Origin: a virus
Virus record (IMG/VR): IMGVR_UViG_3300046460_000196
Coordinates: 1 to 21,799 of that record
Direction: 5' to 3' (one strand)
Length of the DNA stretch: 21,799 bases
Below, in pieces: positions 3,695 through 18,891 of this stretch. The notes below the pieces were generated by a model. That model was not told the origin of the DNA. It ran no database searches and saw nothing but the letters and a program-made list of their open reading frames with translations. The translations under genes were made by a program, and so were the position numbers. Numbering within the stretch: position 1 is the first letter of the stretch; each line of letters opens with the position of its first letter.

Positions 3695-4024
3695 TCAAGG
3701 GCATTCGTCCGCGGTCTTAGTCACATGGCACCCAACCTTCACCCGCTGACCACCGACCAACTCAAAGCGCACACAGAGCACCTGGCAGTTGGCTTCTATG
3801 TCTTCGCCACCCATAAAGAGCGGGACCTTGTGGTCAAGCTCAAAGCCTCGTGGGTAGTCGACCACTCGGCCGCATACTGCACAGGTTGGTTCTCGCTTCC
3901 ACACTGCCAGGCGTCGAGCCTGGAGCCGTCGACCAGTGATGCGCCTGTCTGCGACTACTGGAACCTTCACGACCTGACTTGCCGCCATCTTGAGTGGTGA
4001 CTTGACCATCTTCAGCCTGGCCAT
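3695..4024 (-). CDS. HNH homing-type endonuclease next to terminase
   Basis: 109 residues. The HNH (beta-beta-alpha metal) core is visible: Cys pair CAVCG near residues 48-52, ELDHKVPL (the first catalytic His) near 62-69, ANCQVLC near 78-84 and CHVTKTADE near 99-107. In HK97-like phages the HNH protein works with the terminase in cos cleavage and is needed for head morphogenesis; that role is inferred from family and position. About 14 residues (VRFELVGGQRVKVG) separate the second cysteine from the CH pair, where compact HNH proteins usually have two or three, and the protein ends soon after. The ATG overlaps the holin TGA (ATGA). Arg/Lys-rich N-terminus fits DNA binding. Confidence 0.85.
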   Translation of the reverse strand: MARLKMVKSPLKMAASQVVKVPVVADRRITGRRLQARRLAVWKREPTCAVCGRVVDYPRGFELDHKVPLFMGGEDIEANCQVLCVRFELVGGQRVKVGCHVTKTADECP

Positions 4025-4353
4025 CAGTTGGACCGCCGCGGCAACTTGAAGTCAGCGAACCGATCAGCCAGATCAGCGATCTTCTTCACTCCGAGGAAGC
4101 CGATGAACACACCGGCGGCGGTGGCGAAGTTCTGCGGTAAACCGAAGTACTCGAGCAGCGGGATCAAGCCGATAGTGATCAGCGTGCAGAGCGAGGCTTC
4201 AAGAAGTGCCTGTCGTCGTGTGCCGCCACCGTAGATGATCCGCAATGCACCCACCACGAATGACAGTGCACCAGCATAGATCGTTGGCGCATGCTGGCTC
4301 AGCCACGCGAAAACGAGCAGCCAGGTGTCTGGTTTGTCGGGCATGTTTGGCAT
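4024..4353 (-). CDS. Phage holin, lambda/pyocin-type family
   Basis: 109 residues from ATG 4351-4353, chosen because GGGAGGA lies 8 nt upstream; the longer in-frame extension to 4581 has no ribosome site. Holins form membrane lesions that time lysis and let endolysin reach the wall. Sequence features of the Phage_holin_3 type family are clear: TWLLVFAWLSQHAPTIYAGA, then RIIYGGGTRRQALLEAS, then GFLGVKKIADLADRF near the C-terminus. About three hydrophobic segments (roughly 22-40, 53-70, 76-90) and a charged Lys/Arg tail (FKLPRRSN). It is the first gene before HNH and terminase, as in many Pseudomonas prophages where holin and endolysin are separated. Confidence 0.9.
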   Translation of the reverse strand: MPNMPDKPDTWLLVFAWLSQHAPTIYAGALSFVVGALRIIYGGGTRRQALLEASLCTLITIGLIPLLEYFGLPQNFATAAGVFIGFLGVKKIADLADRFADFKLPRRSN

Positions 4354-4587: not shown

Positions 4588-4611
4588 AAAAGCCCGCACA
4601 TGGCGGGCTAG
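4588..4611 (-). terminator. Intrinsic terminator after the GvpU-like gene
   Basis: AGCCCGC at 4591-4597 pairs with GCGGGCT at 4603-4609 around a 5-nt loop. On the minus strand the stem is followed by TTTTTAATTAA, a good U-tract 27 nt after the GvpU-like stop codon. A-tract on the other side (GAAAAAAA) could make it work both ways. Confidence 0.8.
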
Positions 4612-4637: not shown

Positions 4638-5111
4638 TCAAGTATTGGTAGCTTGGCCGAAGATAATTCCATCAACCGAACTAATCTTGCCCCGCCAAAG
4701 CGCACCAACGGAGGAGATAGGGCCGCCGCTGCTGGTGAATACACGGGATTCGCGCAAATGGAGATATTGAGGGGAGGGCTCTTCTTCTCCCGCATGCTCA
4801 GTCGGGACAAATGATGTGAAGAGGTCCTTAATTGCCTTTGCTGAATCGCTACCTACAGCCTCAAAAGCTTTAGATAAGTCTTCTGACAAGACTTCAAAAT
4901 ACTTTTTGTGAGAGATAAGGCGCCCTGAAACCAAATTTCCACCAATAGTGAGCGTGATCCCGATTTCAAGGTCGGTACGACTTACAAAATCGACAACCCA
5001 CTGTAAAAGCCAATCAGTGGAGCGTCCTTGCCACTGGGTCTTATCAAAGACCGAATCTGCCAAGTCTTCTTTTAGCAGCTCCAATGGACTTACATTTTCA
5101 TTTTTAGACAT
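4638..5111 (-). CDS. GvpU-like protein (gas-vesicle accessory family), isolated prophage cargo gene
   Basis: 157 residues from ATG 5109-5111 (MSKNENVSPLELL), chosen because GGAG lies 7 nt upstream; a longer frame to 5213 lacks a ribosome site. The middle and C-terminal parts resemble GvpU of Bacillus megaterium: LEIGITLTIGGNLVSGRLIS (about 48-67), KYFEVLSEDL (70-79), then YLHLRESRVF (116-125) and ALWRGKISSVDGIIFGQ (137-153), matching the GvpU pattern 'F-I-H-L-K-x-x-K-I-Y ... F-W-R-G-K-I-A-E-V-D-G-F-F-L-G'. GvpU is a gas-vesicle accessory protein reported to drive clustering of vesicles. No GvpA shell or other gvp gene is present, so its role here must differ or act on another partner. AT-richer than its neighbours, with its own terminators on both sides: a typical moron. 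Confidence 0.7.
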   Translation of the reverse strand: MSKNENVSPLELLKEDLADSVFDKTQWQGRSTDWLLQWVVDFVSRTDLEIGITLTIGGNLVSGRLISHKKYFEVLSEDLSKAFEAVGSDSAKAIKDLFTSFVPTEHAGEEEPSPQYLHLRESRVFTSSGGPISSVGALWRGKISSVDGIIFGQATNT

Positions 5112-5208
5112 ATGATGGCTCCATGCTATCGAATAGGAAGCCAACGTATACCTCAGACACTTTTTAAAAAAAAGCTTTTCGCTCGGTTCGCACTTGCTCC
5201 GACATAGA

Positions 5209-5238
5209 ATCATATGCGCACTAAAAAGCCCGACTCAA
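5209..5238 (-). promoter_or_regulatory. Candidate promoter of the GvpU-like gene
   Basis: On the minus strand TTGAGT (complement of 5233-5238) and TATGAT (complement of 5209-5214) are spaced 18 bp, giving a leader of about 95 nt before the start at 5111. The -35 box lies inside the loop of the preceding terminator. A sigma-70-like match by eye only. Confidence 0.35.
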
Positions 5239-5250
5239 TGGCCGGGCTTT
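5225..5250 (-). terminator. Intrinsic terminator at the end of the early rightward-type operon
   Basis: AAAGCCCG at 5225-5232 pairs with CGGGCTTT at 5243-5250. Read on the minus strand the stem runs into TTTTTAG. It lies about 70 nt downstream of the putative late regulator at 5319-5882, where a lambda-like phage would need antitermination to reach the lysis and packaging genes. Confidence 0.75.
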
Positions 5251-5318
5251 ATTGTTCGAATCTCATAACGCGCAAGATCGACATGATGGGCATAAATTAC
5301 GATCATTCCGCCACTGCG

Positions 5319-5882
5319 TCAAGCAGCATCAATAAAGATCTCTTCCCGGTCGAATATCTCAGTTGCATGGATGACCGCAGCCTCTTCCAACGACTCAAGA
5401 CGTTTTGCGATGCCGGTCTTCCAACGTCGGCGTGTCGACTCTGGCTTGCCCTCCACGTCCCAGGTGTTCATGTCGTAGAACTCGGCCGGTAGGACGATCA
5501 TGTCGGTGGAGCGCTTGCCGGATTGGAGCCCCTTTAGCTTAGGTATGGCCCAAGCAGTAAGCGCCTTGTAGATGAACAGTTGCGGTGCTGGGGAAACCAT
5601 GCGGGCCACAAGGCGGCCGATGGCGGCAACCTTGTTGGCCTTGTGTGTCGAGTACTTGGCGACCAGCACATCCCACTGGGCAGGCTCAAGCTGACGATGC
5701 AGCAGCGCGTAAAGGCAGCAGTCATAGTCGAACTTGTCGCGCACTGACAACGAACTACCGGTACCGCCTTGGCGAAGGTCAGCATCGATCAGCCTCTGCC
5801 AGCTTTGCTTGGTGCTGTTGTCGATGCTGTCGGCGGCCAGTACCCGAACCAGCGTGCCCATCACGTCTTTATAAATGCCCAT
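5319..5882 (-). CDS. Possible late-gene regulator (antitermination Q-like) by position
   Basis: 187 residues, start ATG 5882 with GAGGG six nt upstream. The protein is mostly helical with a Cys-Cys pair (YDCCLYALL near residue 54) and a basic helix near the C-terminus (ESTRRRWKTGIAKRLE, about 150-165). I do not recognise a catalytic motif. It is the last gene of the PR operon, followed by a terminator and then, after a cargo gene, by the lysis/packaging genes: the place of Q in lambda. Related Pseudomonas prophages carry similar proteins at this point. Q function is therefore an inference from order; it could also be a conserved hypothetical of the recombination region. Confidence 0.5.
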   Translation of the reverse strand: MGIYKDVMGTLVRVLAADSIDNSTKQSWQRLIDADLRQGGTGSSLSVRDKFDYDCCLYALLHRQLEPAQWDVLVAKYSTHKANKVAAIGRLVARMVSPAPQLFIYKALTAWAIPKLKGLQSGKRSTDMIVLPAEFYDMNTWDVEGKPESTRRRWKTGIAKRLESLEEAAVIHATEIFDREEIFIDAA

Positions 5883-5891
5883 GGCGTTCCC

Positions 5892-6212
5892 TCAATCCCC
5901 GGTGAAGTTGGTGCCGCCGGCGCCGCGGCGGTTGTTTCGTTCGTACTGCGCAGCCGGACCAGACGTCAGCGGCTCGCGCTTCAATAGCTCGACCTGGTGT
6001 TCGGTGGCCTGAAGCCGGATGCTCAACTGGGTCACCAGCACGTCCAGCGGAAGCGCCTCGCCAGTGTCAGCCGACACCCAACCGGAAGCATTGCACTGGA
6101 CGCAGGCCAATTCATGAAAAACGCCCTTCACAACCGCCTTTCCCCTGCAGATTGAGCACTGAGCCAGGTCGAGCTGATCAGCTTTGAAGGCGGGGCCATG
6201 CTGCTTTCTCAT
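5892..6212 (-). CDS. Small zinc-ribbon protein of the phage early region
   Basis: 106 residues. Two CxxC pairs, CSIC at 19-22 and CVQC at about 37-40, followed by NASGW, form a zinc ribbon like the DnaJ cysteine-rich repeat. The second half contains a helix (LDVLVTQLSIRLQATEHQVE) that may be a short coiled coil, and the C-terminus is Asn/Arg/Gly-rich. It starts 5 nt after the recombinase stop codon (GAGG about 10 nt upstream) and ends 9 nt before the next start, so it belongs to the same operon. Probably a nucleic-acid or protein adaptor; function not known to me. Confidence 0.7.
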   Translation of the reverse strand: MRKQHGPAFKADQLDLAQCSICRGKAVVKGVFHELACVQCNASGWVSADTGEALPLDVLVTQLSIRLQATEHQVELLKREPLTSGPAAQYERNNRRGAGGTNFTGD

Positions 6213-6217
6213 CGTTT

Positions 6218-7504
6218 TTAAACCTCGCCTATGGTTGATTCTTGAATGGCCTTGCAGGCCTTGTTTTCTGTGGCTTCCAGCGAATTACCCGAATTTTCGT
6301 TTCTACCGTCCTTCAACCCGTGAATCAGGGAAAAACCCTTGGCGTCTAAATGGGCGTGCCACAGTTCGAGGGCAGCACGCTTGCGCTCTTCCACGGTGGT
6401 GTGGATGTAGGCCTGCACGTTGTGGCCCATGGCGTGGTTGATCAGCATCTCGCCGATCAGGAAGTCGATACCGAGATCGGCCCATCCAGTCCGGGCCAAC
6501 TTGCGCAGGTCGTGACTGCTCCACTCGCCCTTCCCCAACCCGGTGAACACGGCGCTGGCCTGCCCTTCGCTCATGCCCTTTCCGCCGCGGGAGCGAAACA
6601 GGCAATCGCCGTCGTAATGGCTCGCCTGTTGCGCCGCGCGATACCGGATTAAAAGGGAGCAGACTTGATCGGTCAGCGGGAGCGAATGCTCAACGCGCGT
6701 CTTGGTATTGCCCACCGGCAGATACCACGTGCGCTCGGCCAGGCTGATGTGCGACCACTGGGCTTTGCGGGTTTCGCCGATCCGGGTGCCGTGACACAGC
6801 ATCATCAGCGCGAGCATGGCCGGTTGTGCATCGAACTCGAACAGCTCATGCAGCTGGCCCAGCACCCCCTCGATCTGCACACCACGAAGGCGCGCCGGCT
6901 TGGCCTTGATCTTGGTCTTGGAGAAGTCGCTGAACTTGATGCCCGCCATCGGGTTGACCGGGATCAAACCCAGGGTGTGCGCCTGACGGCAAGCGACCAC
7001 CAACAGGCCGAAGATCAGCCGGACAAACTCCAGCGACAGCGTCTCCTGCAGTGGCCACATCAACTGGGTGTCAAGGGTGCCGTGGCGCACATCGGCAAGC
7101 GCCAAGTCACCCACGCGCGGGATCAGGTGACAGGCGATGGCTGACTTGCCGGTGGCCTTGCGCTTGTCGGAGAGGTTGCGGTCACGGCTCATCCGGTCGG
7201 CGTACCAGTTCAGCAGTTCACCCAGCGTTGCCCACGGCGACACGGCGGCACCTGCTTCCGGGTCGGTGCTCAGGCGCATGCGCAGGTCAGGCAATGCGGC
7301 CAGCACCGCCTTCGCCGACAGATCCGGATAGGCGCCAATCCGGTTCCACTTCTTGCGCACTACCAGGCTCCAGGTCCCCCGAGGCCGCGCCTCGGTGAAC
7401 CGGAAATACAGTCCCGGGTGACGCGGGTCACGCATCAGCACCGTGGCCGGATCATCAGCACGCCGACGAATCTCGGCATCGGAAAAGGCCACGGTCATTG
7501 TCAT
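6218..7504 (-). CDS. Second tyrosine recombinase, inside the replication/recombination region
   Basis: 428 residues from ATG 7502-7504, which overlaps the TGA of the VRR-NUC gene (ATGA); a 24-residue extension is possible but lacks support. All catalytic residues of the tyrosine recombinase family are present: R241 (CHGTRIGE), K268 (NTKTR), H331 and R334 (SSHDLRKLA), H357 (INHAMGH) and Y366 (AYIHTT), followed by the ERKRAALELW helix typical of P4-type integrases. An SAM-like core-binding region precedes it (about 90-190). It is far from the attachment site, where a different integrase sits, and is cotranscribed with replication genes, so it probably acts on replicating DNA (dimer or concatemer resolution) rather than integration. 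Confidence 0.9.
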   Translation of the reverse strand: MTMTVAFSDAEIRRRADDPATVLMRDPRHPGLYFRFTEARPRGTWSLVVRKKWNRIGAYPDLSAKAVLAALPDLRMRLSTDPEAGAAVSPWATLGELLNWYADRMSRDRNLSDKRKATGKSAIACHLIPRVGDLALADVRHGTLDTQLMWPLQETLSLEFVRLIFGLLVVACRQAHTLGLIPVNPMAGIKFSDFSKTKIKAKPARLRGVQIEGVLGQLHELFEFDAQPAMLALMMLCHGTRIGETRKAQWSHISLAERTWYLPVGNTKTRVEHSLPLTDQVCSLLIRYRAAQQASHYDGDCLFRSRGGKGMSEGQASAVFTGLGKGEWSSHDLRKLARTGWADLGIDFLIGEMLINHAMGHNVQAYIHTTVEERKRAALELWHAHLDAKGFSLIHGLKDGRNENSGNSLEATENKACKAIQESTIGEV

Positions 7505-7932
7505 GCGGCCACCACTGTGGGAGCGAGTCGCAGGTAAGCGCGGATCTGCTCCACCGTATCGAAGTGCCCACGGCACACCACCGCTAAATACCCCTGTTCA
7601 TTGAGCTTGCGGATGCGTTCATGCTGGCTTGGCGAGATAGCAGCGTCGTTCGGCGGTGTCGCCTTGAATTCGATGTACAACCCAAAGAATCCGCCGCGCG
7701 CCATGGTCAGCACCAGGTCGGGAATACCGGCTTTCACACCCTGGGCCTTCAGCTTGCCAGCGACCGCCTTGACGCGGTGCCCGCCGTTGGGAACGTGGTA
7801 CATCAACTCGAACACTGCCGGGTAGCGCAGCTCAAGCTCGCGCATCAACGCGGTCTGTTCCTGCCCTTCCCGGTCGATTGGTTTGGCGCGGGACGGTTTC
7901 TGCTTGAACAGCCTGGGTTTGGCGGGTGTCAT
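7501..7932 (-). CDS. VRR-NUC domain nuclease
   Basis: 143 residues with the PD-(D/E)XK-like VRR-NUC core: E25-Q26 in REGQEQTALM, GIPDLVLT (D72) and YIEFKA (E88, K90), then Q103 in SPSQHERI. Such stand-alone VRR-NUC proteins in phages are structure-specific nucleases, thought to process branched DNA or act as Holliday-junction resolvases in place of RusA. N-terminus is Lys/Arg/Pro-rich. GGAGAG lies 5 nt upstream of the ATG; the start overlaps the preceding stop and the stop overlaps the recombinase start, so these three genes are translationally coupled. Confidence 0.9.
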   Translation of the reverse strand: MTPAKPRLFKQKPSRAKPIDREGQEQTALMRELELRYPAVFELMYHVPNGGHRVKAVAGKLKAQGVKAGIPDLVLTMARGGFFGLYIEFKATPPNDAAISPSQHERIRKLNEQGYLAVVCRGHFDTVEQIRAYLRLAPTVVAA

Positions 7933-8132
7933 ACAGACTCTCCAGTTAATCGGTCGATGACTTCAAAGGTCGTGGGCCACATCCGCGCACCGTAGGTTTT
8001 GGCCATCTCGACACACCTAAAAATGGCCGCCGCGTGGTCCTGCTCAAAGGTGAGATCCCACTTGTAGCCGCAGCAGTGCACGGCGTAGCGGTACTCGGCG
8101 GGATCAACAAGGACCAGGTGTGGATTAGGCAC
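7929..8132 (-). CDS. Conserved small phage protein of unknown function
   Basis: 67 residues with a GTG start at 8130-8132 that overlaps the end of the P-like gene by 8 nt and has a G-rich upstream sequence. Its TGA overlaps the VRR-NUC ATG (ATGA). It contains a Cys-Cys pair (VHCCGYKW) and ends in an aromatic-rich stretch (MWPTTFEVIDRLTGESV). No family recognised. Coupling on both sides supports a real gene. Confidence 0.65.
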   Translation of the reverse strand: MPNPHLVLVDPAEYRYAVHCCGYKWDLTFEQDHAAAIFRCVEMAKTYGARMWPTTFEVIDRLTGESV

Positions 8133-8820
8133 GGGCCGCCCCCCGCGAACGCATGGCCCGCAAATCGGCCAGCGCCTGATTACCGATTACCGGATTGCGC
8201 ACGGCAGCCGGCGCTGGCAACTCCGCAACCGGTACCGCTGGTAGCTGCTCGCCCATCCAGACCTTACGCACCTGCTCCATGTATCGCTTCTCGAAGCTGA
8301 GCAAACCCAGCTCGCGGCTGAGCAGCGGTAAGCTGTGAAATCCGGCAGCCGCCGTGGCGTGGTACACCGCCGGGTGAAACCACTTTGCAACGCTGCGCAT
8401 CGCCGGATGGCAATTGCGCATAGCCTGATTGAACGCCGAATCGACGCTCGGCAAGCCGATCATGTCCGGGGTTGGCACGCAGCCCTGAATGAACTTGCCC
8501 ACGCTAGGGATGAAATCTGACGGTTCGGCGCGGCAACGGATAAGGCCGATGTCGATCTGCTCCTGGGTGCAGATGCCGTTCTCGATGAACGCCTGTAGCC
8601 AGGTGGCTTTCGATTCCATGTAGGCCTTCTTGTCCGGCCACGCCTGGCGCCAAGCAGTGCGAATCGAGCGCAACTGGCGGAACAGTTGGTTGATCACCTT
8701 GCCGGTTTCGCGAGCCCGATCCTGTTGAGCCTGAACTGATACGTCGGTGGTCGCTTCGATGGACTCGCCCTGGCTGACCTTGGTGATCGCCTTGGCCGCG
8801 AGCGTGGAAACTGATCTCAT
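8125..8820 (-). CDS. Phage replication protein P-like (helicase loader)
   Basis: 231 residues from ATG 8818-8820, chosen because AAGGGG lies 6 nt upstream and the ATG overlaps the O-gene TGA; an ATG at 8841 has no ribosome site. Features fit lambda P family proteins: VINQLFRQLRSIRTAWRQAW near the N-terminus, ENGICTQEQIDIGLIRCR and the 'F.PSVGKFI..C' motif (DFIPSVGKFIQGC) in the middle. P proteins recruit the host DnaB helicase to the O-bound origin. C-terminal third is Ala/Pro-rich linker followed by a basic tail. It lies directly after the O-like origin-binding gene, the lambda order. Confidence 0.87.
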   Translation of the reverse strand: MRSVSTLAAKAITKVSQGESIEATTDVSVQAQQDRARETGKVINQLFRQLRSIRTAWRQAWPDKKAYMESKATWLQAFIENGICTQEQIDIGLIRCRAEPSDFIPSVGKFIQGCVPTPDMIGLPSVDSAFNQAMRNCHPAMRSVAKWFHPAVYHATAAAGFHSLPLLSRELGLLSFEKRYMEQVRKVWMGEQLPAVPVAELPAPAAVRNPVIGNQALADLRAMRSRGAARA

Positions 8821-9617
8821 ATCGAACCCCTTTTCATCCATTCGGTGTTGTCGTCGTCGAACTCGTCCGAATCGGCGGACGATGCATTTCCAGCAGCCTT
8901 TACTCGCTCACGCCTTACCCAGGTCGCCAATCGGAAGCACCATCCGGCAGCGCTGTCGACTGTCGCTGCCTTGGCAACGAAGAAGCCCTTGAACCCGACG
9001 AGCAGATCGACGGTCACCGAGTCATCGGGCAAACCAGCAATGGCGAGCTGATCAGCCATGGCCTTTGCTGCTGGCTGCCAAGTGGCGAACATGGAGAAGC
9101 GTTGGCGTTCATCCACCGACTCGATCGCTACCTGATCCTGCTCGGCAATCACATCGGCGATTTCGCGCTGCAGCTGCTCTTCGGTTCCTTGATGGTTAAT
9201 TGATGTATTGGGTGCAGCCGCTGCACCCCGTACTGTTCCAGGCTGCACCCCGTTCTGTTGTGAATTGCACCCCGTGGCGTCATCTGCACCCCGCTTTGCA
9301 CGGGGTGCAGGATTTGCACCCCGCGTTAGTTGTAGGTCGTAAACAACTGGGCGGCGGTCATGGCGATCGATGTGTACAGCGGCAATGGCCTGATTGCCCT
9401 TCTGGATGAGCCCGACCTTCTCCAAATCATCCAGCTTGTAGCGCACGGTGCGCTCGGACAGACCGGTGTCCTGAGCCAAGGTCGAGGCAGAAGGAAAGGC
9501 GCCAGCACCGTTCGAACCGGCGTAGTTGGCCAGACACAACAGCACGTGACGCGCACTGGAGTCTTTCAGGGATTCAGTGGGCAAAGAGAGCGCCCAAGAC
9601 ATTGCTTGGACACTCAC
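8817..9617 (-). CDS. Phage replication initiator, O-like, winged-helix N-terminus
   Basis: 266 residues with a GTG start at 9615-9617 (reads MSVQAMSWALSLPTES), which overlaps the TGA of a 42-residue frame (GTGA); GGAA is 7 nt upstream. An internal ATG at 9602 is the alternative. Residues 22-95 form a winged helix: ARHVLLCLANYAGSNG, FPSASTLAQDTGLSERTVRY, LEKVGLIQKG. Residues 98-140 are a Gly/Ala-rich linker encoded by the origin iterons. Residues 172-240 (RFSMFATWQPAA, AGLPDD, FKGFF, GWCFRLATWVRRER) look like the DnaT/DnaB-contact domain of phage primosome proteins. It should bind the iterons and, with P, load DnaB. C-terminus is acidic (SDEFDDDNTEW). Confidence 0.88.
   Translation of the reverse strand: MSVQAMSWALSLPTESLKDSSARHVLLCLANYAGSNGAGAFPSASTLAQDTGLSERTVRYKLDDLEKVGLIQKGNQAIAAVHIDRHDRRPVVYDLQLTRGANPAPRAKRGADDATGCNSQQNGVQPGTVRGAAAAPNTSINHQGTEEQLQREIADVIAEQDQVAIESVDERQRFSMFATWQPAAKAMADQLAIAGLPDDSVTVDLLVGFKGFFVAKAATVDSAAGWCFRLATWVRRERVKAAGNASSADSDEFDDDNTEWMKRGSI
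9210..9323. repeat. Phage replication origin: iterons of (C/T)TGCACCCCG inside the O gene
   Basis: Direct copies at 9221-9230, 9243-9252, 9265-9274, 9284-9293 and 9314-9323, one inverted copy at 9301-9310 and a partial inverted copy (GGGTGCAG) at 9210-9217. The first three are spaced exactly 22 bp, about two helical turns. They fall in the protein linker and are translated in more than one frame, so they are conserved as DNA, not as peptide. This is the lambda arrangement, in which O protein binds iterons in its own gene. Confidence 0.85.
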
Positions 9618-9742
9618 AGCGAGGTTCCAACATTGAGTGCGGTAGCCTCGCGTGAGGACATGGTGTGACACGACACCTTTTGCGATTGCCCCAAAAGTGT
9701 CGCGACATGGTGGGTATTGCCGAGAGTAACGATGCTGTTCAT
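9614..9742 (-). CDS. Small coupled gene upstream of O (42 residues), possibly an antirepressor remnant
   Basis: An ATG at 9740-9742 with GAGGGG 5 nt upstream opens a 42-residue frame whose TGA overlaps the GTG of the O gene. The start MNSIVTLGN and the later HTMSSRE recall the N-terminus of Rha/antirepressor-type phage proteins, which often begin MNS(L/I)VTLG and continue TMSSREIAEL. Here the DNA-binding part is missing, so this may be a remnant now used as a translational leader, or an independent small protein. The ribosome site and coupling are good; the family link is tentative. Confidence 0.45.
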   Translation of the reverse strand: MNSIVTLGNTHHVATLLGQSQKVSCHTMSSREATALNVGTSL

Positions 9743-9772
9743 AATGGCCCCTCAGTGTTTTACGTTGTAAAG

Positions 9773-9799
9773 AAGCCGGTCTAGCCACCGGCTTTTTTG
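9773..9799 (+). terminator. Terminator-like hairpin upstream of O
   Basis: AAGCCGGT at 9773-9780 pairs with ACCGGCTT at 9787-9794, followed by TTTTG on the plus strand. No plus-strand gene ends here. On the minus strand the stem is followed by only CTTTAC, so it would be a leaky stop in the PR operon, comparable in place to lambda tR1 (after cro/cII region). Confidence 0.55.
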
Positions 9800-9828
9800 T
9801 GTCTGCGATTCAGGCGATTACTTTTTCA

Positions 9829-9909
9829 TCAGGCGCGACCAATCCCGCCGATTGAGCTGCCGCTCTCAGCGTTCAATGTCCCCACACGTCCTGATGTCTT
9901 GCCGTCCAT
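9829..9909 (-). CDS. Possible 26-residue peptide between CII and O
   Basis: ATG 9907-9909 with GGGGA about 6 nt upstream, reading MDGKTSGRVGTLNAESG and on to a double stop (TGATGA). Gly/Ser-rich, no family. Listed because the ribosome site is good and because the 230-bp stretch between the CII-type gene and the O leader holds no other frame. Confidence 0.25.
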   Translation of the reverse strand: MDGKTSGRVGTLNAESGSSIGGIGRA

Positions 9910-10019
9910 TTCCTTTCCCCTAATGGCCTTCCTGGTGCGATCGGCTTAAGTGCCAACTACGCATTCATTGCTCACCGGCCCCCGCCGATGCAGTTTCGTT
10001 TTCGTCGTGGCCCAACTTC

Positions 10020-10442
10020 TCAAGCGACCTTCACCGACTGCTCCATCACGTCCAGCTCGTTCCGGACATGCTCGATTTCTTTGCGGATACCCTGCTTCTC
10101 GATCTGGCTGACGTGCCCGTCGTCGAGAGCCGAGTGCACCGCGATAGTCAGGTCAGCGATTTCTTTGCCGACGTTCATCATCGAAGCAGTGAGCGTCTTC
10201 GGGGCCGGGGCTTCCTTTTTCACCAGGTCGAAACCGAACTGACCAGCCAAGGCAGCGAGCGGGCGCATATCGCCGGTATGCAGCAGAATCCCGAACAGAT
10301 GCTCGATGGTGAGGTGGTGGGCGTCGTTATCCGGGTTCGCACGCTGCAGCAGGCTCACGTGCGGAACACCCATTTGGCCGGCAAGCACCTTCGCCTCGTT
10401 GTCCAGGACTGCGCTTTGGCAAGCCCGCAGGAATTCGTCCAT
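10020..10442 (-). CDS. Phage regulatory protein, CII/CP76 family
   Basis: 140 residues, ATG at 10442 with GAGGG 7 nt upstream. The N-terminal half matches the Phage_CP76 (CII-type) pattern: EAKVLAGQMGVPHVSLLQRA (helix-turn-helix, about 16-35), NPDNDAHHLTIEHLFGILLH, then PLAALAGQFGFDLV. The C-terminal half is a likely coiled coil. It is the second gene of the PR operon, after cro and before O, the position of lambda cII. CII activates the repressor-establishment promoter in lambda; in this family the target is not shown by sequence. Confidence 0.87.
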   Translation of the reverse strand: MDEFLRACQSAVLDNEAKVLAGQMGVPHVSLLQRANPDNDAHHLTIEHLFGILLHTGDMRPLAALAGQFGFDLVKKEAPAPKTLTASMMNVGKEIADLTIAVHSALDDGHVSQIEKQGIRKEIEHVRNELDVMEQSVKVA

Positions 10443-14165: not shown

Positions 14166-14231
14166 CGATTTCACTGGCTGGCCTTGGCGACAGGGCCAGA
14201 CGGGAAATCAACGGGCAATAAGGAATCGACA

Positions 14232-14906
14232 ATGACTGTGGATATCAGCAACTTCACCATCGCCACCCCGCTTCCAATTTCAGACACGAACCCTATCTCC
14301 CTCGACCTGATCGGTTGGCGAGCGCTGATCGAGTGCCCCAGCGTCATCTCGATGCTTCCCGACGGTTCGCTGCAGATGACAGCGCCCACCCTTGGAGCTT
14401 CCAGTAAAAGCGTCCATCGAACTCGCTGCGAATGGAAAGAACCTGGTTACTGGCCATTTTCTAGTGCTGCAGACCATTGGTGCCGTCAAGAAATGCGGCT
14501 GACGAAGATCAATTCGTTGCAGAAGGTCGTGATCGGCCAAATTCACGTGCAGGGATCCGAGCGCCCTCCGGTGAAGGTGTTTTGGAACAAGGGCAAAATC
14601 ACCATGGGGTTCCGGTCGAGCTACCTCCAAGACGACCCAGTTAACTCGACGGTGCTGGAAAACGTGCCGCTGGGTGCTCTCTTCAAAATCAATATCCACG
14701 CGAATTCAAACGGCGCCGTCTCAGTATCGGCGAGCTGCAACGGCGTCAAATCTACTTCAGCAATCATGCGTCTCGACAGTACATGGGACACGAAAACGCT
14801 CGCCTTCCACGGCGGCGTTTACAACCAGATTGATTACTCCGAAACGACCGATCCTGAAGACGCCTCGATCTGCATCATCAGCGATCTATCGATTACTCAC
14901 ATCTGA
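14232..14906 (+). CDS. Polysaccharide lyase family 7 (alginate lyase-like) protein
   Basis: 224 residues from ATG 14232, selected for AAGGAA 6 nt upstream; the longer frame from 14184 has no ribosome site. The start VDISNFTIATPLP resembles the 'IDLSxWxLxxP' start of PL7 (alginate_lyase2) enzymes. The three family motifs are present in order: RCEWKE (65-70) for R(S/T)ELRE, VVIGQIH (99-105) for Q(I/V)H with Q103 and H105, and FHGGVYNQ (192-199) for YFKAG(V/I)YNQ with Y197. The jelly-roll length fits a single-domain enzyme. PL7 lyases cleave alginate by beta-elimination. No signal peptide is seen, so release would need lysis. Several motif positions are unusual (S to C, L to W, R to K, K to H), so altered substrate or lost activity is possible. 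Confidence 0.82.
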   Translation: MTVDISNFTIATPLPISDTNPISLDLIGWRALIECPSVISMLPDGSLQMTAPTLGASSKSVHRTRCEWKEPGYWPFSSAADHWCRQEMRLTKINSLQKVVIGQIHVQGSERPPVKVFWNKGKITMGFRSSYLQDDPVNSTVLENVPLGALFKINIHANSNGAVSVSASCNGVKSTSAIMRLDSTWDTKTLAFHGGVYNQIDYSETTDPEDASICIISDLSITHI

Positions 14907-16187: not shown

Positions 16188-16215
16188 GGAAAGCTCAAAT
16201 AGGTGCAAGCTTTCC
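16188..16215. terminator. Hairpin between convergent genes
   Basis: GGAAAGCT at 16188-16195 and AGCTTTCC at 16208-16215 form an 8-bp stem with a 12-nt loop that includes the stop codon of the minus-strand gene. U-tracts are short (TTTGG on minus), so termination is likely weak but may work both ways. Confidence 0.45.
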
Positions 16216-17139
16216 ATCAATCATTTGCAGTGGCCGTTCGAACTCAAGCCTGCGCCCGGTGACATTATGATCTTCGGGATGATTTTCTGCCTTGAACATT
16301 CGTTCATGACAAGAGTTTGAAGCTTTCAACTCAGTATCAAACAACGAATAAATCATTTTAAATGGCTGCCCCCCGGTGACATATTCAACTTCTCCGTAGA
16401 CACTGAGCATCCCGAACCCGTCATCAGAGGGTGAGATCCCATCTGCCACCCATTGGAAGTCACTATTAAATAAACATGTAACATATGTTCCATCACCCAG
16501 CTTGAATTTAGTCATATGTAGAAGCAGCCCGATCGACAGAATAATTTTCGGCCTTTGCAATTCCAAGGAACTCTGGCAAAAAACAATCCCCACAGATTTT
16601 AGCACCTTGAAAAATTCAAGCATAAATTCATGAGGCGTAAATACAGGCCTAACTTTTATAAAACCAAGCAGATGTTGCAACACCAAAAATTCTGATCTGG
16701 TTATTTTATCATTCGCCAAAACGCAAGTTTTACTACATTCATCCTCTATAAATACGCTCTTTAAAATATCACCCACCTGCTTCCGAGACATATTCAGATG
16801 TTCTCTTAGGCTTGCATTCGAACAACTGCGTAGCTGATGCACCAAGAGATACATCACATAAGAGGGAAATCTCTTCGTGATATCTAATTTTTTTTCAGAA
16901 CCAATATAATCCATACCGTACTTGAAGGCCAGATAAAAAGCATCAAGAGACTTGTTAGTTATTCCCTGATCACGCACATCATTATGCGCAACGAAGTTGG
17001 CAACCTCCCTAAACACTTGGAAAGAACGTGAGTACTCTCGAAGTCGCAGTATAACAACCTCAACATCCTCATCATTAAAGTCGCCGCGCTGTATACGATC
17101 AATGGTTCTTTGAGTTTTAAGTTTTTCAATTGGCTTCAT
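16195..17139 (-). CDS. AT-rich cargo gene, unknown function (314 residues)
   Basis: ATG at 17139 with GAGGG 5 nt upstream. Opposite in strand to the surrounding early genes and clearly AT-richer, with A/T-ending codons; signs of late acquisition. The N-terminal 60 residues are helical and charged (REYSRSFQVFREVANFVAHN, then DVRDQGITNKSLD). Residues about 95-130 contain LREHLNMSRKQVGDILKSVF, a possible winged or plain helix-turn-helix. The second half alternates strands and short helices with five or more cysteines and no obvious nuclease, NTPase or membrane motif. I do not recognise a family. By position and composition it is a moron; phage defence or lysogenic conversion are reasonable but untested roles. 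Confidence 0.8.
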   Translation of the reverse strand: MKPIEKLKTQRTIDRIQRGDFNDEDVEVVILRLREYSRSFQVFREVANFVAHNDVRDQGITNKSLDAFYLAFKYGMDYIGSEKKLDITKRFPSYVMYLLVHQLRSCSNASLREHLNMSRKQVGDILKSVFIEDECSKTCVLANDKITRSEFLVLQHLLGFIKVRPVFTPHEFMLEFFKVLKSVGIVFCQSSLELQRPKIILSIGLLLHMTKFKLGDGTYVTCLFNSDFQWVADGISPSDDGFGMLSVYGEVEYVTGGQPFKMIYSLFDTELKASNSCHERMFKAENHPEDHNVTGRRLEFERPLQMIDGKLAPI

Positions 17140-17252: not shown

Positions 17253-18176
17253 ATGCCTACAGCAATCGATTTGTTCGCCGGGCTCGGCGGATGGTCAACC
17301 GGTGCCCGCAATGCAGGTATCGACGTTCTTTGGGCCGCTAATCACTGGCCGGTCGCGGTTGAGTGGCACAGCGCCAACCACCCGAACACACAACACGTCT
17401 GCCAAGATCTGCACCAGGCGCAATGGGATAAAGTGCCAGCCCACGATCTACTGCTGGCCTCCCCATGCTGCCAGGGGCACTCGAAAGCTCGTGGTAAGAA
17501 GTCGGGAAACCCGCAGCACGATTCCTCGCGCTCGACAGCGTGGGCAGTAGTGTCGGCGTTGGAGTTTCACCGGCCTGAAGCAGGACTGGTAGAAAACGTC
17601 GAAGAGTTCACCGACTGGGCGCTGTACCCGGCCTGGGTCGCGGCAGTGCAGGCGCTGGGCTACCAAGTCGCGCCCCACGTCGTGGACTGCGCTGACTTGG
17701 GCGTGCCGCAACACCGCGTCCGACTATTCTTGGTCCTGACCCGCAGCAAGGCGCCGCTGATGCTCGAACTGCACCGGCGCCAGCACGTCCCTGCTGCCAG
17801 CTTCCTCAACTTCGACGCCGGGCGCTGGTCCCCCATCGAGAAGCCGGGGCGGGCTCAGGCCACGCTGGAACGTGTGCGCAATGGCCGCGAGCGCTTCGGC
17901 GAGCGCTTCATCATGCCTTACTATGGCAAGGGCTCTGGGCTGACTGGCCGTGACATCAACCGGCCCATTGGCACTATCACCACCTTGGACCGCTGGGCGC
18001 TGGTGAACGGCGACCGCATGCGGATGCTCAGCGCTGACGAAGCTCTGACTGCTCAGTCATTCCCGGCTGATATCCTGCGCCCGGATAACCACCGCATGAC
18101 CATGCACCTAGCCGGCAATGCGGTACCACCCTTGGCCGGGCAACGGATTATAGAAGCTCTAATAGTTGCTGCATGA
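17253..18176 (+). CDS. DNA cytosine-C5 methyltransferase (orphan)
   Basis: 307 residues. All main C5-MTase motifs are visible: motif I DLFAGLGGWSTGA (6-18, AdoMet binding), motif IV SPCCQGHS (P71-C72, catalytic Cys), motif VI ENVEE (114-118), motif VIII QHRVRLF (153-159) and motif X GNAVPP (288-293). The target-recognition region between about 165 and 255 is short, fitting a compact phage enzyme. CGAGG is 7 nt before the ATG. It uses GC-rich codons like the phage core, unlike its two AT-rich neighbours. No restriction enzyme is recognisable nearby, so it is probably an orphan that protects phage DNA from host restriction or alters expression. Confidence 0.93.
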   Translation: MPTAIDLFAGLGGWSTGARNAGIDVLWAANHWPVAVEWHSANHPNTQHVCQDLHQAQWDKVPAHDLLLASPCCQGHSKARGKKSGNPQHDSSRSTAWAVVSALEFHRPEAGLVENVEEFTDWALYPAWVAAVQALGYQVAPHVVDCADLGVPQHRVRLFLVLTRSKAPLMLELHRRQHVPAASFLNFDAGRWSPIEKPGRAQATLERVRNGRERFGERFIMPYYGKGSGLTGRDINRPIGTITTLDRWALVNGDRMRMLSADEALTAQSFPADILRPDNHRMTMHLAGNAVPPLAGQRIIEALIVAA

Positions 18177-18183
18177 CCTGCCC

Positions 18184-18891
18184 TCAGCGAATAAACTTTC
18201 CTTTCAAATATTGCTCAGAAAGTGCTAAGCGGCGGTTGAAATCTTGAGTGAACTCATCACCGTCCTCACTCAAATCGTCATGGAGAACATCCCTACGTTT
18301 TTTTTGGAGTTCTGAATGTGCTGCACGCATGTCATCTGCCTCCAAAGGATTCATTATCATAAAATAGGAGCGAACATACACACCAAGCTCAAGCTCCAAC
18401 GTTACGAGCTGCGCAACTATAGTTCGCAGTTTATCACCCCAAACAACATCAGCCTCAAGAAGATCGGATAATAATATAATCCGAATATCCTCGGCCGCCT
18501 TGAAACGACGGCTATAGGCCTTACTTAGCCCTTGAAATCTTTCAACTTCAGGGTCGATCGAGCGCTTTTCATTGTCGTCAGCAGATGTTTCGGAAGTCAT
18601 GACTACAGGGTGACGAATGCGCTTTATTGCCTCTCTATACTTATAAATACTGATTAAGAGTTTTCGTGCAAGGTCGTGATCAGATGTCGCCCTTAACTGC
18701 CAACGCCATGCGTTAATTCCTGCAGCTGCTACGCATACGGCAATGATCGTTGCTAGTGCCCCAAGGATCTCGAAGAGGTCGTGCACATTATTAATTGTGA
18801 AAAAATTACTTTTAATTGGAATCTCAGCCCAGACTGCGCCACATCCAAATAGCAAAAAACAAATCAGCCATACAGCCCAATCACGTCTCAT
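18184..18891 (-). CDS. Membrane-anchored cargo protein, unknown function
   Basis: 235 residues, ATG at 18891 with GGAGGG 5 nt upstream. Two hydrophobic helices (about 5-22 and 38-60) form a hairpin with a short outside loop, followed by a long cytosolic helical, charged domain (HDLARKLLISIYKYREAIKR, later VERFQGLSKAYSRRFKAAED and DFNRRLALSEQYLKGKFIR). AT-richer than the phage core and opposite in strand. It ends 7 nt from the convergent methyltransferase stop, with no terminator between. Not recognised; two-helix anchors with a cytosolic helical sensor are common in superinfection-exclusion and abortive-infection proteins. Confidence 0.78.
   Translation of the reverse strand: MRRDWAVWLICFLLFGCGAVWAEIPIKSNFFTINNVHDLFEILGALATIIAVCVAAAGINAWRWQLRATSDHDLARKLLISIYKYREAIKRIRHPVVMTSETSADDNEKRSIDPEVERFQGLSKAYSRRFKAAEDIRIILLSDLLEADVVWGDKLRTIVAQLVTLELELGVYVRSYFMIMNPLEADDMRAAHSELQKKRRDVLHDDLSEDGDEFTQDFNRRLALSEQYLKGKFIR

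Follow-up and report, generated by a model that had tools for sequence, protein, structure and literature searches.

The GvpU protein belongs to the gas-vesicle cluster of Priestia (Bacillus) megaterium. According to published work, it clusters gas vesicles through a phase transition (Li et al. 2024, as cited in PMC11445434); a second group disputes this role, since its own work did not bear out the effect (PMC11223475). In Shiga-toxin phages, stx occupies the interval between the late regulator gene Q and the lysis genes (PMC6266700). At the alpB promoter of Pseudomonas aeruginosa, the antiterminator AlpA bypasses a terminator that begins 54 nt after the start site (PMC7969949).

The stretch of DNA analysed in this study, referred to as the window, is 21,799 nt in length and harbours a gene that is very probably a GvpU-family member with the status of phage cargo. 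Its likeness to GvpU of P. megaterium was found via the NCBIfam profile NF041667. In contrast to the P. megaterium protein, it is encoded by a stand-alone gene carried as cargo by a phage and has an extra N-terminal segment with a helix, and no gas-vesicle genes accompany it in the window element or were found in any carrier genome tested. The slot that contains the gene would be the counterpart of the Q-to-lysis interval carrying stx in Shiga-toxin phages. In that interval (the pR' region) of lambdoid and Shiga-toxin phages, cargo likewise follows a late regulator and a promoter-terminator leader, precedes a lysis gene and varies between related phages. In the window, however, the regulator is unrelated in sequence to known Q proteins, and the cargo is unrelated as well and lies between two terminators. 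The promoter-plus-terminator leader of the slot also resembles the arrangement of the alpB promoter and AlpA. As is typical for phage morons, the window gene is an AT-rich single gene with flanking terminators that is absent from close relatives; it differs from morons in that the terminators probably belong to the slot and a private promoter is only suggested.

Taken together, we consider it on balance probable that the gene is an exchanged cargo gene of a lambdoid Pseudomonas prophage, which would serve the lysogen in a role other than gas vesicles through a self-assembling protein of Sm/LSm-like fold.

The GvpU-family gene and its neighbours

The open reading frame spans positions 4638–5213 (−), with the ATG at 5111 as the likeliest start codon and a GGAG Shine-Dalgarno sequence 7 nt upstream of it. 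This start is supported by the N-terminal pattern SP..E...DLAD.VF...W.GR.TDW.LQ, which is common to the window protein and phage U5. Positions of the gene and of the features around it are listed in Table 1.

Table 1. Features of the cargo slot and its borders (positions within the window)
Feature	Position	Strand	Remarks
Holin gene (PF05106)	4024..4353	−	estimated start; next gene downstream of the slot
Intrinsic terminator 3' of the cargo gene	4591..4609	−	7-bp stem, T tail
GvpU-family stand-alone gene	4638..5111	−	157 aa; coordinates include the stop codon
TATACG, candidate private −10 element	5145..5150	−	39 nt upstream of the start codon
Candidate promoter of the sequence-only reading, weak	5209..5238	−	TTGAGT-18-TATGAT
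Intrinsic terminator 5' of the cargo gene, tR'-like late-leader position	5225..5250	−	10-bp stem AAAGCCCG..CGGGCTTT
pR'-like late promoter	5294..5322	−	TTGACG (5322–5317), 17-nt spacer, TAATTT (5299–5294)
Gene of the phrog_3412 protein, putative Q-type late antiterminator	5319..5882	−	PHROG match E 8e-79; function from position only

The window protein matches NF041667 (GvpU) over all 117 profile positions with 79.6 bits (E 2e-22), which is above the curated cut-off of 70 bits, and all 55 aligned homologues match the same profile. Searches of the protein against Pfam and PADLOC yielded no match. Its PHROG matches, phrog_14356 and phrog_15933, are both annotated as function unknown; they represent the same protein family as the window protein, and the link to GvpU is absent from the PHROG annotation. 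No gene for gas vesicles was recognised elsewhere in the window. The GC content of the gene is 0.47, compared to 0.60 and 0.57 in the flanks, and a GC content below that of the flanks was also observed for the GvpU-family genes of L034, L067, L085, L091, L094 and L095. These results agree with the sequence-only reading, which had described an AT-rich, stand-alone gene of the GvpU family in a moron-type position ahead of a lysis gene, here the holin gene.

On one side, the gene is accompanied by genes for CI, Cro, CII, a P-like helicase loader, an internal integrase-like protein, phrog_5085 and phrog_3412. The other side comprises genes for the holin, an HNH nuclease and the two terminase subunits as well as a portal-region ORF. 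This is the gene set of a lambdoid temperate phage. The phrog_5085 protein (5892–6212, −) contains a CxxC zinc-finger pattern and has a weak similarity to anti-TRAP below the cut-off (E 0.0035).

Further genes were noted elsewhere in the window. An alginate lyase family 2 gene (14184–14906, +; PF08787, E 8e-40) is located in the prophage early region. A DNA cytosine-5 methyltransferase (17253–18176, +) matches TIGR00675 over the cut-off, and no restriction partner was recognised. Two ORFs of 314 and 235 aa (16195–17139, − and 18184–18891, −) between the immunity genes and the right-hand integrase are possible cargo; neither has a significant match in Pfam, NCBIfam or PADLOC.

The slot between late regulator and holin

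The phrog_3412 protein has no relative in Pfam, NCBIfam or PDB and no sequence link to any antiterminator, so that an identification as a known Q protein was rejected. Its position suggests that it is probably a Q-type antiterminator. With this protein as the query, 274 loci were found in IMG/VR, and 80 of them were retained as relatives. A promoter-like element, CTTGAC-N-TAAATT or close to it, lies over the phrog_3412 stop codon in all 76 relatives with enough sequence, and a terminator-like hairpin follows it in 69 of these 76. The pR'-like promoter of the window also overlaps the stop codon. The upstream terminator of the window begins 68 nt past the stop codon, and in most holin-bearing loci the first terminator of the slot begins 64–70 nt after it.

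A holin was recognised in 41 of the phrog_3412 loci. Cargo between two terminators was found in 22 of them, while seven have an empty slot with tandem terminators 12–18 bp apart, eleven have a single terminator and one has none. The cargo is thus an insertion between genes that are adjacent in relatives. Its size varies, and the GvpU-family gene is missing from most relatives; another GvpU-family gene occupies the same slot in L121. The tandem pairs of empty slots and the many other cargos suggest that the two terminators are those of the slot and not the gene's own. The sequence-only reading had interpreted the gene as a prophage moron with a terminator at each end: this was right in kind, and both terminators are present, but their assignment shifts from the gene to the slot.

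In the slots of L104–L183, at least ten different proteins without Pfam and PADLOC matches were observed between phrog_3412 and holin. None of the ten non-GvpU cargo proteins examined had a match in either database. Nine of these ten were also compared with NCBIfam, again without a match, and with PHROGs, where three matched unknown families. A tRNA-like sequence suggested by eye in the slot of L175 (approximately 4740–4830, after the first terminator) was not called by ARAGORN and was rejected.

The private promoter proposed by the sequence-only reading exists, but has a score of only 9/12, is one of three such sites (chance expectation 1.3 ± 1.2) and has its −35 element within the loop of the terminator hairpin. 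It is therefore regarded as weak. Late transcription through the slot appears likelier than transcription from this promoter. The TATACG element closer to the gene has no recognisable −35 partner. However, TATA is found 36–39 nt upstream of the start codon in five copies in the Q slot (the window, L121, L067, L095 and L085), whose leaders are otherwise 25–42% identical; multiplying the individual probabilities obtained from shuffled leaders gives about 1e-9 for the shared TATA, a motif noticed before the test. The conserved TATA is missing in L034 and L091.

Two routes of expression, late read-through and a private promoter, are plausible for the window gene. After induction, antitermination of the late leader would lead to strong transcription. 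In the lysogen, transcription would be lower and may start from a private promoter in the region of the conserved TATA.

Distribution and genomic contexts of the family

When the window protein alone was used for back-translation searches, neither viral nor genome contigs yielded a relative. Relatives were recovered with a six-member alignment, whereas broader alignments were short of conserved stretches. Among 400 Pseudomonas genomes, 29 have a match to NF041667, which exceeds the cut-off in 25 of them; there was no match in the 398 genomes of other Pseudomonadota sampled. In the phylum of a Desulfopila genome, the profile was matched in two of 247 genomes, one of which is the Desulfopila genome itself.

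Prophage relatives occupy the Q slot in L034, L067, L085, L095 and L121. In L006 and L012, the gene follows the lysis genes, and in L094 and L016 it lies beside the tape measure gene. The related proviruses L035 and L036 (approximately 7030–10160) carry it between the apparent genes for the small and the large terminase subunit. In Gordonia phage Schnabeltier, a family member is located between tail genes and integrase. Across these phage contexts, several genes were identified by reading their sequences. Family members also occur in chromosomes and on plasmids, including a small mobilizable plasmid. Fifteen chromosomal loci of Pseudomonas share the same two neighbour families, but a conserved partner gene common to all contexts inspected was not found. 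The survey of stand-alone homologues showed that standing alone is the rule in every carrier examined and no peculiarity of the window phage.

In an unrooted tree, which was obtained with a quick method and is weakly supported at its deep nodes, prophage copies are interspersed with chromosomal ones, with eight changes of the prophage label. A 19-member chromosomal group from Pseudomonas forms one supported set next to the window gene, L121 and L067. The two halves of the copy in L095 (9070–9351) match in separate pieces; it is therefore taken as broken, and an interpretation as a short GvpU variant was rejected. In L068 (8519–13079), the neighbours of a chromosomal GvpU-family gene, as identified by eye, are a histidine kinase gene, a KaiC-like ORF and two KaiB-like ORFs.

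Since the family recurs at cargo positions of temperate phages (after the lysis genes, around the terminase genes, within the tail module and at the Schnabeltier position) and has a member on a small mobilizable plasmid, an anti-phage function in the lysogen, by superinfection exclusion or abortive infection, has to be considered. Such functions are frequent among prophage accessory loci (PMC7067206). We regard this explanation as possible but doubtful: PADLOC gave no match for the window protein or for ten other cargos of the slot, by which membership in a known defence family was rejected, and inspection of the chromosomal copies revealed no defence gene consistently beside them.

Predicted fold, function and relation to gas vesicles

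An AlphaFold2 model of the window protein was built as a single chain from 41 sequences. Its mean pLDDT is 84.8, with values of 90–97 in the core and low confidence for the N-terminal 30 residues. The model comprises a helix (residues 34–45), two strands (48–56 and 59–66), two helices (68–84 and 90–99) and three further strands (116–125, 137–142 and 148–156). Comparison with the PDB using Foldseek yielded a U1 snRNP chain as the best match (probability 1.00, TM 0.64 on the target). Further matches were Sm, LSm and archaeal SmAP chains, amid unconvincing proteasome matches of low probability. The distant relative in L036 (28% identical) has the same order of helices and strands in its model (core pLDDT 83–96), and Sm, LSm or Gemin chains account for nearly all of its best 50 matches in the PDB. 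Both models thus contain a helix followed by a small barrel of five strands, with Sm/LSm proteins as the best PDB matches (probability 1.00, E 0.02–0.04, TM values of about 0.6 on the target).

With the Sm/LSm/Hfq superfamily, the protein shares the predicted N-terminal helix, the five-strand barrel and an RG after strand 4; it differs in a two-helix insert between strands 2 and 3 and in having no sequence-profile match. None of the 55 family members matched the Pfam LSM profile, and a profile comparison with one archaeal Sm sequence gave an E-value of 0.35, so that no link to Sm was found at the sequence level. In the Foldseek search against the PDB, no E-value was below 0.001 for either model. 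Based on the models, an Sm/LSm-like barrel with a helical insert is probable; with these E-values and with sequence profiles blind to the link, the fold is not proven. No earlier report of such a fold for GvpU was found in the literature searched, whose reach did not include Li et al. 2024.

The matches of both models to Sm/LSm proteins raise the question of whether the protein forms an RNA-binding, Hfq-like ring that alters host or phage transcripts, with WRG.I..V.G in the role of the Sm2 RG motif. By eye, LWRGKISSVDG is similar to the Sm2 motif, R140 is invariant in the family and G141 at least nearly so, and the order strand-RG-strand is like that of Sm2. However, the failed profile comparisons speak against this explanation, the helical insert that separates strands 2 and 3 sets the protein apart from canonical Sm proteins, and GvpU was reported in protein clustering and not in RNA binding. 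We consider it unlikely.

According to the preferred explanation, the gene would be accessory cargo exchanged into the slot between the phrog_3412 late regulator and the holin. Its product, as predicted, would combine the Sm/LSm-like barrel and the helical insert with a disordered N-terminus. Like P. megaterium GvpU, for which self-assembly is reported, it may form rings or condensates, and it may cluster or sequester a cytoplasmic target that is not a gas vesicle, either some other assembly or nucleic acid, to the benefit of the lysogen. Going by the models, a self-assembling protein with a target other than gas vesicles has slightly less than an even chance of being correct. Action on another assembly, for which phage particles, inclusions or a defence complex had been proposed from the sequence, is the most reasonable inference.

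The protein might instead serve the phage's own late programme, in packaging, assembly or the timing of lysis. The window gene lies on the late-gene strand downstream of the late promoter, and relatives are found between terminase genes (L035, L036) and beside the tape measure gene (L094, L016). Yet the gene is missing from most relatives with the same slot, the family occupies several unrelated positions and it is retained in chromosomes that show no recognisable phage genes in its vicinity, which makes a late-programme function quite improbable.

GvpA (PF00741) was found in none of 37 distinct genomes carrying relatives of the window gene (sets of 10 and 29, two shared) and in none of six carrier plasmids, while the positive control plasmid gave three matches. 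With a simple counting method and several dS values near saturation, the median dN/dS was 0.075 over 107 pairs of stand-alone chromosomal copies, indicating purifying selection; one prophage pair gave 0.20. Purifying selection on stand-alone copies and the absence of GvpA from carriers support the conclusion that the family has a function without gas vesicles. The GvpU family is not tied to gas vesicles. That the window protein is a genuine accessory protein acting on gas vesicles of the host is hardly credible with these GvpA results, even though NF041667 is an 'equivalog' model for gas vesicle accessory protein GvpU.

Two stand-alone plasmid proteins (L004, 2187–2627; L008, 5712–6146) bear the RefSeq label 'gas vesicle accessory protein GvpU', which is likely an over-annotation, since no GvpA is encoded on those plasmids. 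As every carrier tested has a family member without gas vesicles, this automatic label, for example on an Enterobacter plasmid, is misleading.

A more far-reaching idea, which we put forward tentatively and consider rather improbable as a whole, is that GvpU represents a single branch within a broad family of assembly proteins with an Sm fold, a family with its main role outside gas vesicles. Stand-alone members carried as cargo by temperate phages and plasmids would form condensates or rings in the lysogen, for instance trapping components of incoming phages or RNA, and one member would later have been recruited by gas-vesicle clusters.

For lambdoid Pseudomonas phages, the two-terminator slot in the late leader is a recognisable hunting ground for cargo genes without known function. 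For the GvpU family, the predicted Sm/LSm-like fold provides a concrete hypothesis for self-assembly and points to residues to mutate.
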